From Apilactobacillus timberlakei (lineage in GTDB: Bacteria > Bacillota > Bacilli > Lactobacillales > Lactobacillaceae), in contig NZ_POST01000001.1 of NCBI RefSeq assembly GCF_002993965.1, positions 170,520 through 209,552 on the forward strand: DNA of 39,033 nt, written 5' to 3'. The notes under the pieces were generated by a model, which saw nothing but the letters and a program-made list of their open reading frames with translations, made no database searches and was not told where the DNA came from. Position 1 is the first letter of the stretch. Each line of letters begins with the position of its first letter. This document shows positions 30,538 to 39,033 of this stretch, in pieces. Position numbers and translations under genes: made by a program.

Positions 30538-30669
30538 TAATGTGTTACAGAGGTTCGAGTTTCTAAGGTTACTTGTTTTATAGTTTTATGAAATAACTTC
30601 CTTGATTCAGGCTTTATGATACATTAGAATTCAAGCACATCTAGTGCGATTTTATGGAGGTTTCATATT
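30538..30669 (+). promoter_or_regulatory. Long 5' leader of the cold-shock gene
   Basis: About 130 untranslated bases lie between the inferred start site and the ATG, ending in a GGAGG ribosome-binding site. Such leaders control stability and translation of csp mRNAs at low temperature in other bacteria. I did not resolve a specific fold here. Confidence 0.5.
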
Positions 30670-30873
30670 ATGAAACAAGGTACAGTTAAATGGTTCAACG
30701 CTGATAAGGGTTACGGTTTCATCACTACTGATGATGGTGACGTATTCGTTCACTTCTCAGCTATCAACAAAGAAGGTTTCAAGACTTTAGACGAAGGCGA
30801 AAAGGTTACATTGGACGTTGAAGAAGGCGACCGTGGCCCACAAGCTGCTAACGTTACTCCTGTTGAAGGTTAA
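30670..30873 (+). CDS. csp: Cold-shock protein, CspA family
   Basis: This single-domain OB-fold RNA chaperone of 67 residues binds single-stranded RNA and DNA and melts secondary structure. RNP1 is KGYGFI (13-18) and RNP2 is VFVHF (25-29); [18 protein letters not shown] is the canonical start. Codon use is noticeably richer in C-ending codons (TTC, AAC, GAC) than in neighbouring genes, as expected for a very highly expressed gene. It has a consensus promoter, a long leader and its own terminator, so it is monocistronic. Confidence 0.97.
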
Positions 30874-30892
30874 TGTTTAGATAAAAAGTTTT

Positions 30893-30932
30893 AAAAAAGA
30901 GTTCTTAGATTTTATCTAAGAACTCTTTTTTT
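30893..30932. terminator. Bidirectional terminator between csp and the TetR gene
   Basis: AAAAGAGTTCTTAGAT pairs with ATCTAAGAACTCTTTT around a 3-nt loop, with T runs on both strands. Confidence 0.9.
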
Positions 30933-34919: not shown

Positions 34920-35861
34920 TTATTCTTCGCTATGTTTATCAATAGTTAATTTACGATGTGAATTTTGTAGAACAAATATTGCTAAAATAACTAATAAAGC
35001 ACCAATAATTTTAATTAGATTAATTCCTGTATTAAAGAAAATAATGCTTAAAATAAATGTAACTACTGGTTGAGTAGCATCAACCAAACTAACCACTTCT
35101 GAAGGTGCAAAATTTAATGAATGCAATAAGATTATGAAAGGTAAAATTGTACCAAGCAATATTATTGCACCAACACCTAAAACAATTCCAGTAGTTAAAT
35201 GAGGAGCATCAACCCACAAAGGTTGTCTAATATTAAAAATAATTCCAGCAATTAATGTTCCCCAACCTAGAATAACCATTGGTGAACTAGTTTTAACAAT
35301 TGGGCGAGGTAAAACTACATATAAAGCAGCAGTAACTCCTGATAGGATTCCCCAAATTAATGATTCCATTGAAATAGACAACTTACTAAAATCACCTTGT
35401 GTTAAAGATAAAATAATTCCGGAAATCGCAATTACGAAAACTACCACATCAATGGGCAAAGGTTTCCTTTTTTGAAAAATCATCGAACCTAATAAAATAA
35501 ATAGTGGTGATAAGTATTGTAAAATAGTTGAAGCATCTGCATTACCAGTTTGAACACTCATAAAGAATGTATATAAATTAGCACCGATTCCAAAAACTCC
35601 ATAAGCAACAATACATAAAAACGACTTCCAAGAACCAAATACATTAAATATATGTCCCTTGTAGACAATTGCAGAAATGACTAATAATATTATTCCAGCA
35701 ATCATAGTTCTAGTAGATAAAAACCAATTTGCTTCTAATTTTTCTTGTTGCGAAACAAATTGAAGTACAGTTCCAGAAACTCCCCAAAGAGCAGAAGCAA
35801 TAAATGCCCAAAAGATTCCCTTTAAAACGTTAGTTTCTAAAACACCTTTTTCATTATTCAT
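34920..35861 (-). CDS. EamA/DMT-family transporter, copy A
   Basis: This is a predicted ten-helix drug/metabolite-type exporter of 313 residues made of two EamA halves. GIFWAFIASALWGVSGTVLQF opens the first half, and SLIWGILSGVTAALYVVLPRPI the second, followed by FAPSEVVSLVDATQPVVTFILS. GAGGTG precedes the ATG. It is a close paralogue of the gene at 35997, on the same strand, with a terminator and about 135 bp between them, so each is probably separately expressed. Amino acids or related metabolites are common substrates of the family; none can be assigned here. Confidence 0.88.
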   Translation of the reverse strand: MNNEKGVLETNVLKGIFWAFIASALWGVSGTVLQFVSQQEKLEANWFLSTRTMIAGIILLVISAIVYKGHIFNVFGSWKSFLCIVAYGVFGIGANLYTFFMSVQTGNADASTILQYLSPLFILLGSMIFQKRKPLPIDVVVFVIAISGIILSLTQGDFSKLSISMESLIWGILSGVTAALYVVLPRPIVKTSSPMVILGWGTLIAGIIFNIRQPLWVDAPHLTTGIVLGVGAIILLGTILPFIILLHSLNFAPSEVVSLVDATQPVVTFILSIIFFNTGINLIKIIGALLVILAIFVLQNSHRKLTIDKHSEE

Positions 35862-35996: not shown

Positions 35997-36935
35997 TTAT
36001 CTAATATCAGGTGCCTTTTTAGCACGTTTTTGATGTGATCTTTGTAAGAAGTAAATAGATACAATAATGATAACTGCACCTAATGCTTCAAAGAAACTTG
36101 GAATTTGCTTAAATACAATAATACTTAAAATAATTGTAACAACCGGTTCAACAGCATCTACAATGCTTGAAACTTCAGATGGAGCAAATTTTAGACTGTA
36201 TAAAACAGATGAAAATGCAAAAATAGTACCAATTAAAATTATTCCACCAATTCCTAGAACAATCCCAGTATTTAATTTAGGTGCATCAGTCCAAAATGGA
36301 TGATAAAGATTAAAACCAATTCCAGCAATCAATGTTCCCCATCCTAAAACAACAAATGGTGAATTATCTTGTGTTAAAGGTTTAGGAACTGAATAATAGA
36401 TTGCAGCTGAAACAGCTGAGAATAATCCAAAGATTATAGAAATCATTGGTACTGATAATTCACTAAAACTTCCTTTAGTAATAATCAAGAAAACACCAAC
36501 TAAAGCAAACAAAAAAGAAATAATATCAACTTTAAGTGGCTTTTTATGCAAGAAAATCAATCCATACAAAACGATAAATACAGGGGCCAAATACTGCAAT
36601 ATGGTTGCAGTAGAAGCGTTACCAGTTTGAATACTTACATAGAATGTTGACATATTAACAGCTAAACCAAAAATAGCATATATAAACAATCTAATAATTG
36701 ATTCTTTTGACTTAAATACATCAAAAATATGTTTCCCAACAAATGATGCACCAATAATTAATAATAAAATACCAGCAAATAAAGTTCTAACTGAAATAAA
36801 CCAGTTTGTTGGTACATTTTCTGATTGCGAAACAAATTGAGTAATTACACCCGAAATTCCCCAAAGAGTTGAAGCCATCGATGACCAAAAAATACCTTTC
36901 ACAACATTTTCCGATGTTTTATGTCGTTTTTCCAT
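35997..36935 (-). CDS. EamA/DMT-family transporter, copy B
   Basis: This paralogue of copy A is about 312 residues with ten helices. Many segments are shared word for word or nearly so, for example the opening GIFW-S-ASTLWGISGVITQFVSQ, GWGTLIAGI, TGIVLGIGGIIL and FAPSEVSSIVDAVEPVVTIILS. A local duplication followed by divergence explains the pair. The start is the ATG at 36935, 8 nt after TAGGAG; a TTG two codons earlier is too close to the site. Its own terminator separates it from copy A. Confidence 0.88.
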   Translation of the reverse strand: MEKRHKTSENVVKGIFWSSMASTLWGISGVITQFVSQSENVPTNWFISVRTLFAGILLLIIGASFVGKHIFDVFKSKESIIRLFIYAIFGLAVNMSTFYVSIQTGNASTATILQYLAPVFIVLYGLIFLHKKPLKVDIISFLFALVGVFLIITKGSFSELSVPMISIIFGLFSAVSAAIYYSVPKPLTQDNSPFVVLGWGTLIAGIGFNLYHPFWTDAPKLNTGIVLGIGGIILIGTIFAFSSVLYSLKFAPSEVSSIVDAVEPVVTIILSIIVFKQIPSFFEALGAVIIIVSIYFLQRSHQKRAKKAPDIR

Positions 36936-36965
36936 TTTCAAAACTCCTAAAATTATATTTATAAT

Positions 36966-38363: not shown

Positions 38364-38391
38364 AGAATTCCCCCCATCCTAATAAACAAAT

Positions 38392-38423
38392 AAAAAACGC
38401 ACCGGTTATTCTTAACCAGTGCG
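38392..38423 (-). terminator. Leader terminator 2 of the permease
   Basis: On the minus strand CGCACTGGTTA (38423-38413) pairs with TAACCGGTGCG (38408-38398), 11 bp with one G-U pair and an AGAA loop, followed by six T. It lies in the untranslated leader, before the permease ribosome-binding site. Confidence 0.88.
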
Positions 38424-38426
38424 ATT

Positions 38427-38474
38427 AAAAAAGCACTAGAAAGAATAACTGTTACCAGCTATTTTTCTAGTGCT
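38427..38474 (-). terminator. Leader terminator 1 of the permease
   Basis: On the minus strand AGCACTAGAAA (38474-38464) pairs with TTTCTAGTGCT (38442-38432). After one bulge an upper stem of about 8 bp (AATA-G-CTG with CAG-T-TATT, GTAA loop) continues. Six T follow. It is upstream of terminator 2 and of the permease gene. Confidence 0.88.
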
Positions 38475-38518
38475 CGAAGTTTGAATCATAACAAAATAAT
38501 TTCTTCTGCGTACTATAC

Positions 38519-38593
38519 TTAACAGCTAGTAATGTTAAAGAAGAAATTATTATTATCTCGTTTTATAGTCTCAATTCTATAAACAATCGTCAT
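38519..38593 (-). CDS. 24-residue leader peptide of the permease attenuator
   Basis: This short ORF has an AGGAGGT ribosome-binding site at the ideal 7-nt distance from its ATG. The product opens MTIVYRIETIKR and continues DNNNFFFNITSC, so it has an uninterrupted Asp-Asn-Asn-Asn-Phe-Phe-Phe-Asn codon run near the end. No membrane segment or signal is present. The codon run coincides with one arm of a downstream hairpin, and the stop codon lies inside a second pairing arm, as expected of a leader peptide whose translation speed is sensed. Asn or Phe tRNA charging is the simplest candidate signal. Alternatively the peptide itself could arrest the ribosome. Confidence 0.75.
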   Translation of the reverse strand: MTIVYRIETIKRDNNNFFFNITSC

Positions 38594-38631
38594 GATTTAA
38601 ACCTCCTAATATTCGTTTATTTATTATAGTT

Positions 38632-38660
38632 ATTTTAACTAATATCTTATTAAAATGCAA
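38632..38660 (-). promoter_or_regulatory. Promoter of the permease leader
   Basis: On the minus strand TTGCAT (38655-38660) and TAAAAT (38632-38637) are 17 bp apart. The start near 38625 lies just upstream of the leader ribosome-binding site. Confidence 0.5.
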
Positions 38661-38663
38661 GAA

Positions 38664-39033
38664 CTATTTATTATTGGTTTTATTTTTTCTTTCTTTTAAC
38701 TCATCCTTCAATGAATCTAACCTCTTTTGCAAAATGATAGAAACTTGTTCATTTTTTCTAATATTATCATTGGTTCGATTAATTAGTTCTTCAATCTCTG
38801 CTTCGGAATATCCCGACATGTTTTTTTGCATAATGTAAGTATTTTGATAGGCATGTAATACAATATTGTAACTATTTTTACCTAATTCCAATAATCCACC
38901 AGACACATTATGGAAGCTTGGCTTTTCACTAAAATGATCAATATGAATCATAATTCCACGACTAATAGTATTGTTCCAAAAATTAATTAAAGATCCCGCA
39001 AAAAATGCTGTAAATAAGGTCATAATTCCAAAT
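38664..39033 (-). CDS. Membrane/coiled-coil protein, 5' end outside the window
   Basis: I do not recognise this protein. The frame is open to the right edge, and the ATG at 39023 falls within a hydrophobic stretch (FGIMTLFTAFFAGSLINFW), so the true start is probably beyond the window. About 123 residues are visible. They comprise one membrane segment at the left, a middle part (SGGLLELGKNSYNIVLHAYQNTYIMQKN), and a charged coiled-coil-like C-terminus (RKNEQVSIILQKRLDSLKDELKERK). It could be a small single-span membrane protein. It ends just before the permease leader promoter, without a clear terminator. Confidence 0.55.
   Translation of the reverse strand, partial: FGIMTLFTAFFAGSLINFWNNTISRGIMIHIDHFSEKPSFHNVSGGLLELGKNSYNIVLHAYQNTYIMQKNMSGYSEAEIEELINRTNDNIRKNEQVSIILQKRLDSLKDELKERKNKTNNK

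Follow-up and report, generated by a model that had tools for sequence, protein, structure and literature searches.

A probable phenylalanine-sensing leader-peptide attenuator upstream of an amino acid permease gene in Apilactobacillus and related Lactobacillaceae

The window, a 39,033-nucleotide stretch of Apilactobacillus timberlakei DNA, encodes on its minus strand a 465-residue amino acid permease of the APC superfamily, followed after a 24-nt gap by an EamA-type transporter and by a second EamA-type transporter in tandem (Table 1). From this arrangement, the permease and one or both EamA-type genes perhaps form a single operon under the region described here. The nearest NCBIfam model to the permease is the branched-chain transporter BcaP (615 bits, under the cut-off of 690), and the solved structures that match it best, 5oqt and 6f34, are each named "Amino acid transporter." Upstream of the permease, a promoter-like site falls between the end of the preceding reading frame (38664) and a short leader open reading frame (ORF), which is followed by two hairpins, T1 and T2.

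Table 1. Coordinates of the leader features, the neighboring genes, and the pheS T-box (positions are those of the window unless a contig or locus is given)
Feature	Position	Strand	Basis or remark
Attenuator region before the permease	38388-38607	(-)	read directly from the sequence
Promoter-like site, TTGCAT-17-TAAAAT	38632-38660	(-)	read from the sequence; not listed by a consensus scan
Leader ORF ribosome-binding site, AGGAGG	38602-38607	(-)	read from the sequence
Leader ORF, 24 codons, MTIVYRIETIKRDNNNFFFNITSC	38519-38593	(-)	SD and frame through FFF in 16/16 genus loci
Phe codons TTC TTC TTT, proposed sensor codons	38537-38545	(-)	invariant in 16/16 genus loci
P1, 5' strand (part of leader SD and start codon; partner 38477-38494)	38587-38604	(-)	folding, covariation
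P1, 3' strand, just before T1	38477-38494	(-)	folding, covariation
Segment A, P2 5' arm (13-bp helix); shares positions with Asn/Phe codons	38539-38551	(-)	pairing in the genus alignment
Segment A', 3' arm of P2, past the ORF	38495-38507	(-)	98.1% of cells paired, no two-sided change
Segment B, end of leader ORF; partner is the T1 left arm	38521-38532	(-)	covariation, duplex z-scores
Segment C, T1 left arm (B-pairing part of the 12-bp helix, 38452-38463)	38456-38475	(-)	pairing alignments
Segment D, T1 right arm (core CTAGTGC, 38433-38439, pairs with T2)	38431-38451	(-)	
Hairpin T1, C:D	38431-38475	(-)	read from the sequence
U-run after T1, six U	38427-38432	(-)	kept in 14/16 genus loci; absent from L013 and L014
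Segment E, T2 left arm	38413-38423	(-)	terminator scan, covariation
Segment F, T2 right arm	38398-38408	(-)	terminator scan, covariation
Hairpin T2, E:F	38398-38423	(-)	terminator scan
U-run of T2	38388-38397	(-)	terminator scan, genus alignment
Permease, APC superfamily, 465 aa	36966-38363	(-)	family search
EamA-type transporter	35997-36941	(-)	family search; 24-nt gap after the permease
EamA-type transporter, second in tandem	34920-35861	(-)	family search
T-box above pheS	C2:296520-296737; L148:1501-1718	(-)	about 320 nt upstream of the matched pheS domain

The leader region folds to -87.4 kcal/mol, compared to -42.1 ± 4.1 kcal/mol for shuffled sequences (z = -10.9; 200 dinucleotide shuffles, none as low). 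T2 was the sole site reported by a simple terminator scan of a 3-kb region, but it is unremarkable on its own because shuffles of that region average 1.1 hits. Several alternative pairings connect the leader ORF with the hairpins. P2 (A:A') encloses B, the end of the ORF, which can instead pair over 12 bp with the left arm of T1. The right arm of T1 can pair with the left arm of T2 through segments of 7 and 9 bp, both of which are present in the window. A further helix that the preliminary description did not include, P1, pairs the Shine-Dalgarno sequence (SD) and start codon of the leader with the RNA just before T1. A comparable pairing of the ribosome-binding site with downstream RNA has been proposed for the trp leader of Escherichia coli.

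A DNA search with the leader matched all 16 Apilactobacillus genomes, two of them (L015 and L016) over 55 nt only. One genome (G007) matched at a rounded 100% across the 341-nt query, yet it carries a base difference in T1. The SD, an in-frame ORF through the FFF codons, and the hairpins are common to all 16 loci. The earlier reading of a 24-codon ORF with a perfect ribosome-binding site holds for the window. The leader peptides vary ahead of the Phe run (MTIVYRIETIKRDNNNFFFNITSC, MATCYILTIKQDNNNFFFNLN, MVTCYKLTLQQDNNNFFFNFELAI, and MTIYRPTSIYSFNNFFFNFSSYLV) and the position of the stop codon shifts, while FFF is constant; it is preceded by NNN in 14 leaders and by NN in the remaining two. The promoter-like site (TTGCAT or TTGCAA, a 17-nt spacer, and a TA-rich -10 element) was found in all 12 of the 16 genus upstreams that were examined.

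The pairings are kept to different degrees within the genus. The 13-bp helix is full in 14 of 16 sequences and retains 11 of 13 pairs in two; the 12-bp helix retains 11 or 12 of 12 pairs in 14 and 9 in two. Both helices had been claimed from the window and both stand. The T1-T2 pairing, described as 9 plus 7 bp, holds in its 7-bp part, where the antiterminator is best preserved (full in 14/16; 4 of 7 in two with a shifted alignment). The 9-bp part is uninterrupted in only two sequences and was rejected as a general element, though 10 more sequences retain 7 or 8 of its 9 positions and four retain 4 or 5. Likewise, two hairpins with U-runs in series are present as described, but termination at T1 does not appear obligatory. 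The T1 U-run is missing in two Apilactobacillus sequences, and the equivalent hairpin lacks one in 11 and 4 aligned leaders, respectively, from two other genera (g21 and g25). This suggests that the conserved role of T1 is that of a relay, which holds or releases D, comparable to the his attenuator.

Homologues of the permease were sought in 397 genomes of the family, and the loci fetched are part of the matches listed. The 114 upstream regions from outside the genus belong to the highest-scoring homologues among those matches, a nonrandom sample collected in three rounds (14 + 40 + 60). A terminator-like site is present in 41 of them, and in 20 a terminator comes after an ORF that has a ribosome-binding site and encodes a cluster of aromatic residues. 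On the antisense strand the same detector found 3 of 114, and in five dinucleotide shuffles 1, 0, 0, 0, and 0 of 114. In two further loci (L119 and L122), the leader lies slightly outside the scanned range.

FFF-type leaders precede the homologous permease in 11 of 12 g21 loci, and Phe-run leaders are found in all six g25 loci. Genus g32 provides one clear leader (L097) and one weak one (L104), and g36 provides one weak leader (L106); L104 and L106 contain one Phe each and were kept as weak, and the L106 permease match has one TAA inside. In the twelfth g21 locus (L152), the leader is gone while the permease remains, and a coding sequence stands in its place that, by our own reading, may be the end of a TnpB-like gene. 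Six more g21 loci outside the main permease clade have no leader (L168, L169, L186, L202, L203, and L206). An Rfam scan of 20 leaderless sources detected no T-box or riboswitch before the permease; the one hit was an FMN riboswitch (L095), downstream of the permease start on the other strand.

For a midpoint-rooted permease tree, 86 of the loci obtained were selected by hand. Of these rows, 37 are labeled as having a leader, including L214 and L215, whose leaders are weak, and 49 have none; five leader-bearing loci (L110, L111, L114, L119, and L122) are left out. The leader-bearing permeases of Apilactobacillus (labeled g1), g21, g25, g32, and g36 group together in a single 32-row clade (support, 96/80). 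All but one of these rows are labeled with a leader, including the weak L214 and L215, and the exception is L152. L168, L169, and L186 fall outside the clade, while the leader-bearing copies from the same genomes fall inside it. The leader label changes four times on the tree, compared to a mean of 28 in shuffles. Since the leader-bearing permeases of five genera, two of them represented by weak examples, share one clade, the leader is probably ancestral there.

Other leaders lie outside this clade. The five fetched g24 loci (L135, L141, L191, L194, and L201) all have leaders ending in FAFSLFG or AFSLFG, with a different layout and, in four of them, two terminator-like sites. As the main clade does not include the g24 permeases, these leaders may have an independent origin. 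In Fructilactobacillus sanfranciscensis (L039:126-191), the peptide MINHNSKTNIYYFAYFWRLAD, which contains YYFAYFW, and then a terminator precede the homologous permease. This leader has the start-site pairing, and its permease lies on a long branch outside the main clade in an unsure position; the leader may likewise be independent.

Covariation was scored for the two sets of pairings in alignments of 11 g21 and 16 Apilactobacillus sequences. The readthrough fold (B:C and D:E) is paired in 90.8% of cells in g21, where versions with one strand slid reach at most 42%, and in 92.8% in Apilactobacillus. Counting cells, a measure that counts sequences rather than events and that relatedness inflates, both sides changed in 8 cells in g21 (3.4 by shuffling; 0/500 shuffles as high) and in 11 in Apilactobacillus (3.9; 0/500). 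The terminating fold (P1, P2, C:D, and E:F) gave 33 such cells in g21 (11.0; 0/500) and 23 in Apilactobacillus (7.1; 0/500). Counted as pairs, the readthrough fold has 4 two-sided changes in g21, a number reached by 72 of 500 shuffles, and 5 in Apilactobacillus, reached by 41 of 500. The number of pair types was not above shuffles for the readthrough fold in either genus or for the terminating fold in Apilactobacillus.

Two-sided changes affect 5 P1 pairs in g21 and 2 in Apilactobacillus. One D:E pair in g21 is UA in seven sequences and CG in four, a concerted change that argues that the pairing matters. As duplexes, B:C had z ≤ -2.1 in 14 of 16 representatives (median, -3.2) and was not significant in F. 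sanfranciscensis and L097; D:E had a median z of -3.0, was weaker than -2 in 6 of 16, and, given the core word common to both hairpins, is to be expected in part. Together, the alignments indicate that P1, B:C, C:D, D:E, and E:F covary, with mutually exclusive terminator and antiterminator pairings in two genera. The compensatory changes that the preliminary description had proposed to look for in relatives were thus seen in the 12-bp helix and in D:E but not in the 13-bp helix, where neither alignment contains a two-sided change. P2 is conserved and hardly varies, and covariation gives no proof of it. The g25 alignment varies too little for covariation to be informative.

These data bear on whether T1 and T2 could be ordinary terminators of the upstream gene, with a spurious ORF and the permease promoter below them. 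Tandem terminators are common, a reading frame does end just upstream at 38664, and the consensus scan did not list the promoter-like site. That site, which sits after the end of the upstream frame and ahead of the leader, is nevertheless present in all 12 genus upstreams examined, the frame through FFF is kept in 16/16 loci, the alternative pairings covary, and leader-plus-terminator arrangements recur on the sense strand of homologous upstreams far above the antisense and shuffled counts. The absence of the T1 U-run in two Apilactobacillus, 11 g21, and 4 g25 leaders also disagrees with constitutive tandem terminators. We therefore give this explanation next to no credence.

On the comparative evidence, the leader is very likely a transcription attenuator of the ribosome-mediated type, through which the supply of charged tRNA-Phe sets the expression of an importer gene; a leader-peptide attenuator at this position had been proposed from the window, and the retention of the ORF and the covariation of its pairings agree with it. 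We infer the ribosome stalling, the order of folding, and the regulated termination as follows. When Phe is ample, the leading ribosome would reach the stop codon and cover B, which after release would be shut inside P2. T1 and T2 would then form, and transcription would stop at T2 and, in most Apilactobacillus, probably at T1 too. When Phe is short, a ribosome stalled on the FFF run would cover A, and the free B would pair with C as C emerges, leaving D for E. T2 (and T1) could then not form, and the permease would be transcribed. This is the competition first read from the window, in which the end of the ORF opens T1 and the right arm of T1 captures T2, and its pairings covary in relatives. 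P1 would favor the terminating fold while the leader is untranslated.

The residue first proposed as the signal was a joint Asn/Phe run. Its Phe part is invariant in 16/16 genus loci and persists in g21 and g25, whereas the Asn run is absent outside the genus (MLDRLISISQRFFFFFNQPGYQPVS and MNSMQRVAFSFFFKLPSNRLVD), which makes Phe the likely signal. Sensing of Asn, alone or jointly with Phe, draws on the NNN or NN that precedes FFF in every Apilactobacillus leader and on an equally workable geometry, in that a stall on the AAT run would also free B. Apart from its absence in other genera, the conservation of the AAT codons in Apilactobacillus can be explained by their position in the 5' arm of the 13-bp helix. 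We regard a role of Asn in sensing as improbable.

The switch was examined by folding. At equilibrium, the probability of T2 in the full leader is maintained despite stalling in 11 of 13 representatives, the exceptions being L098 and L116. Equilibrium folding was rejected as a model of the whole switch for this reason, and any switch must then be kinetic, operating during transcription. Transcripts ending at the T1 apex were used instead, for 14 representatives, with equilibrium folding and assumed ribosome footprint sizes. With a ribosome at the stop codon, B:C pairing was 0.00 in 12 of 14 (0.26 in L116 and 0.99 in L100). With the ribosome instead stalled where the Phe run begins, it was 0.92 to 1.00 in nine. 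In five Apilactobacillus sequences (L001, L005, L008, L011, and L013), the stalled ribosome alone gave 0.01 to 0.08 because P1 and local pairs win. Four of the nine, all from g21 (L093, L098, L116, and L150), formed B:C at 0.98 to 1.00 without any ribosome, which the simple model does not predict. The simple folding models thus back the switch in part.

When a second ribosome was placed at the start codon, an added assumption, B:C rose to 0.92 to 1.00 in 14/14 representatives. This raises a two-ribosome version, in which readthrough, because of P1, would require another ribosome loading at the leader start while the first is stalled, so that the leader would read initiation as well as Phe supply. 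The two-sided changes in P1 in both genera favor it, as does the rise of B:C in the five Apilactobacillus sequences to 0.98 to 0.99 with the second footprint and not otherwise, the two footprints fitting 11 to 14 nt apart. On the other hand, this comes from equilibrium folding with assumed footprints, the second ribosome is unneeded in the other nine representatives, and in L093, L107, L113, and L120 the two footprints would overlap by 1 to 4 nt. We therefore treat this version as tentative and rather doubtful.

The proposed Phe attenuator fits the predicted physiology of the genus. Prephenate dehydratase (PF00800) was found in none of the 16 Apilactobacillus genomes, compared to 14 of 14 control genomes. 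This predicts that Apilactobacillus is a Phe auxotroph and that Phe probably must be imported, and we propose Phe as the putative substrate of the permease. The BcaP match speaks against this, since that family carries branched-chain rather than aromatic amino acids. A different kind of stalling leader, responsive to a drug or to its own nascent peptide as at erm, msr, and cat, is known from Gram-positive bacteria, and according to one article such leaders are able to control transcription termination (PMC4335068). Here, however, the downstream gene is an amino acid permease, what stays constant is a series of codons for a single amino acid, and the genus has no detected prephenate dehydratase; a leader of that kind is very improbable at this locus.

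A T-box was rejected as the sensor at the leader. The T-box covariance model (RF00230) has no match there, as the preliminary description had stated, although it has 23 matches in the genome of the window, 10 of them over the cut-off. Furthermore, every Rfam family stays below its threshold at the leader, and no leader-peptide family is among the 11 matches at E values up to 10. T-box riboswitches sense uncharged tRNA and control termination, and one lies above pheS in this genome. By our own reading of the alignment, the apparent specifier, which directly follows GAA in the specifier region, is UUC (Phe). Together with the importer leader, this suggests that the genome reads Phe supply in two ways. 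Lactobacillaceae usually use another kind of sensor for this job. The pieces can be assembled into a fuller, family-specific Phe attenuator: a relay of B:C, C:D, D:E, and E:F combined with P1 as a start-site lock, the importer being on only when one ribosome is stalled at Phe and another is loading; a relay hairpin that in Apilactobacillus has turned into a second terminator, so that the off state is guarded twice; and Phe read also by the pheS T-box. Taken as a whole, this scheme is a possible but unlikely one.

Several known attenuators resemble the Phe leader proposed here. In the his scheme of Salmonella and E. coli, with its segments A to F, the codon segment A pairs directly with B. Here, A instead pairs with A' beyond B and so encloses B, a U-run follows the extra hairpin itself in 14 of the 16 Apilactobacillus sequences, and the amino acid and the gene differ. 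One his study describes a leader peptide in which codons for a single amino acid follow one another, as found here, and an extra hairpin between leader and terminator that is thought to block the antiterminator unless a ribosome is in the control region (PMC1183508). T1 likewise lies between leader and terminator and, on the covariation evidence, would be dissolved by B:C. The pheA and pheST attenuators of E. coli (pheL and pheM) also combine an FFF-rich leader peptide with transcription attenuation, but they control biosynthesis or synthetase genes in Proteobacteria rather than a permease.

Leader-peptide attenuation is already known in Firmicutes, and the contrast originally drawn, with leader peptides in Proteobacteria and T-boxes in Gram-positive bacteria, is too sharp: such leaders have been described or predicted in Bacillus, Staphylococcus, Listeria, Lactococcus, and Streptococcus. 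Studies of the ilv-leu leader of Staphylococcus aureus (PMC5794164) and of Listeria Rli60 (PMC5864092) give genetic support for leader-peptide attenuation of branched-chain amino acid biosynthesis operons, which differ in both respects from the present case, and the former also cites predictions for Lactococcus and Streptococcus. Histidine leader peptides, which differ in the amino acid sensed and are likewise predicted Firmicutes attenuators, lie upstream of hisZ/hisS* in bacilli (PMC2965389) and of the his operons of the Bacillus cereus group and others (PMC9413887). The latter article names T-boxes as the commonest control of histidine genes in Lactobacillales. Among the papers listed from the open-license PMC literature, no description of a Phe leader in Lactobacillaceae was found. 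Within this known mechanism, we take as new the amino acid Phe, the transporter target, the relay with its B-enclosing helix, the doubled terminator, and the start-site lock.

If the proposed attenuator is correct, slowing of ribosomes at Phe codons probably lets a bee-associated relative of Lactobacillus switch on an amino acid importer, by a device inherited across several genera. This would add to the lactic acid bacteria an inherited Phe leader-peptide attenuator that acts on a transporter rather than on a biosynthetic operon and that coexists with a T-box sensing the same amino acid. It would point to the substrate of an importer in bacteria predicted to be unable to make Phe, and it would provide a natural case for testing why a single gene retains a sensor that works by translation when a tRNA-binding RNA is available. 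It would also suggest how, inside one genus, a relay hairpin can acquire or lose the role of second terminator.

Elsewhere in the window, on the plus strand, positions 30555 to 30929 match the Rfam cspA thermoregulator barely over its threshold (78.7 versus 78 bits), and this match covers a 67-residue ORF (30670 to 30873) that resembles a cold shock protein.
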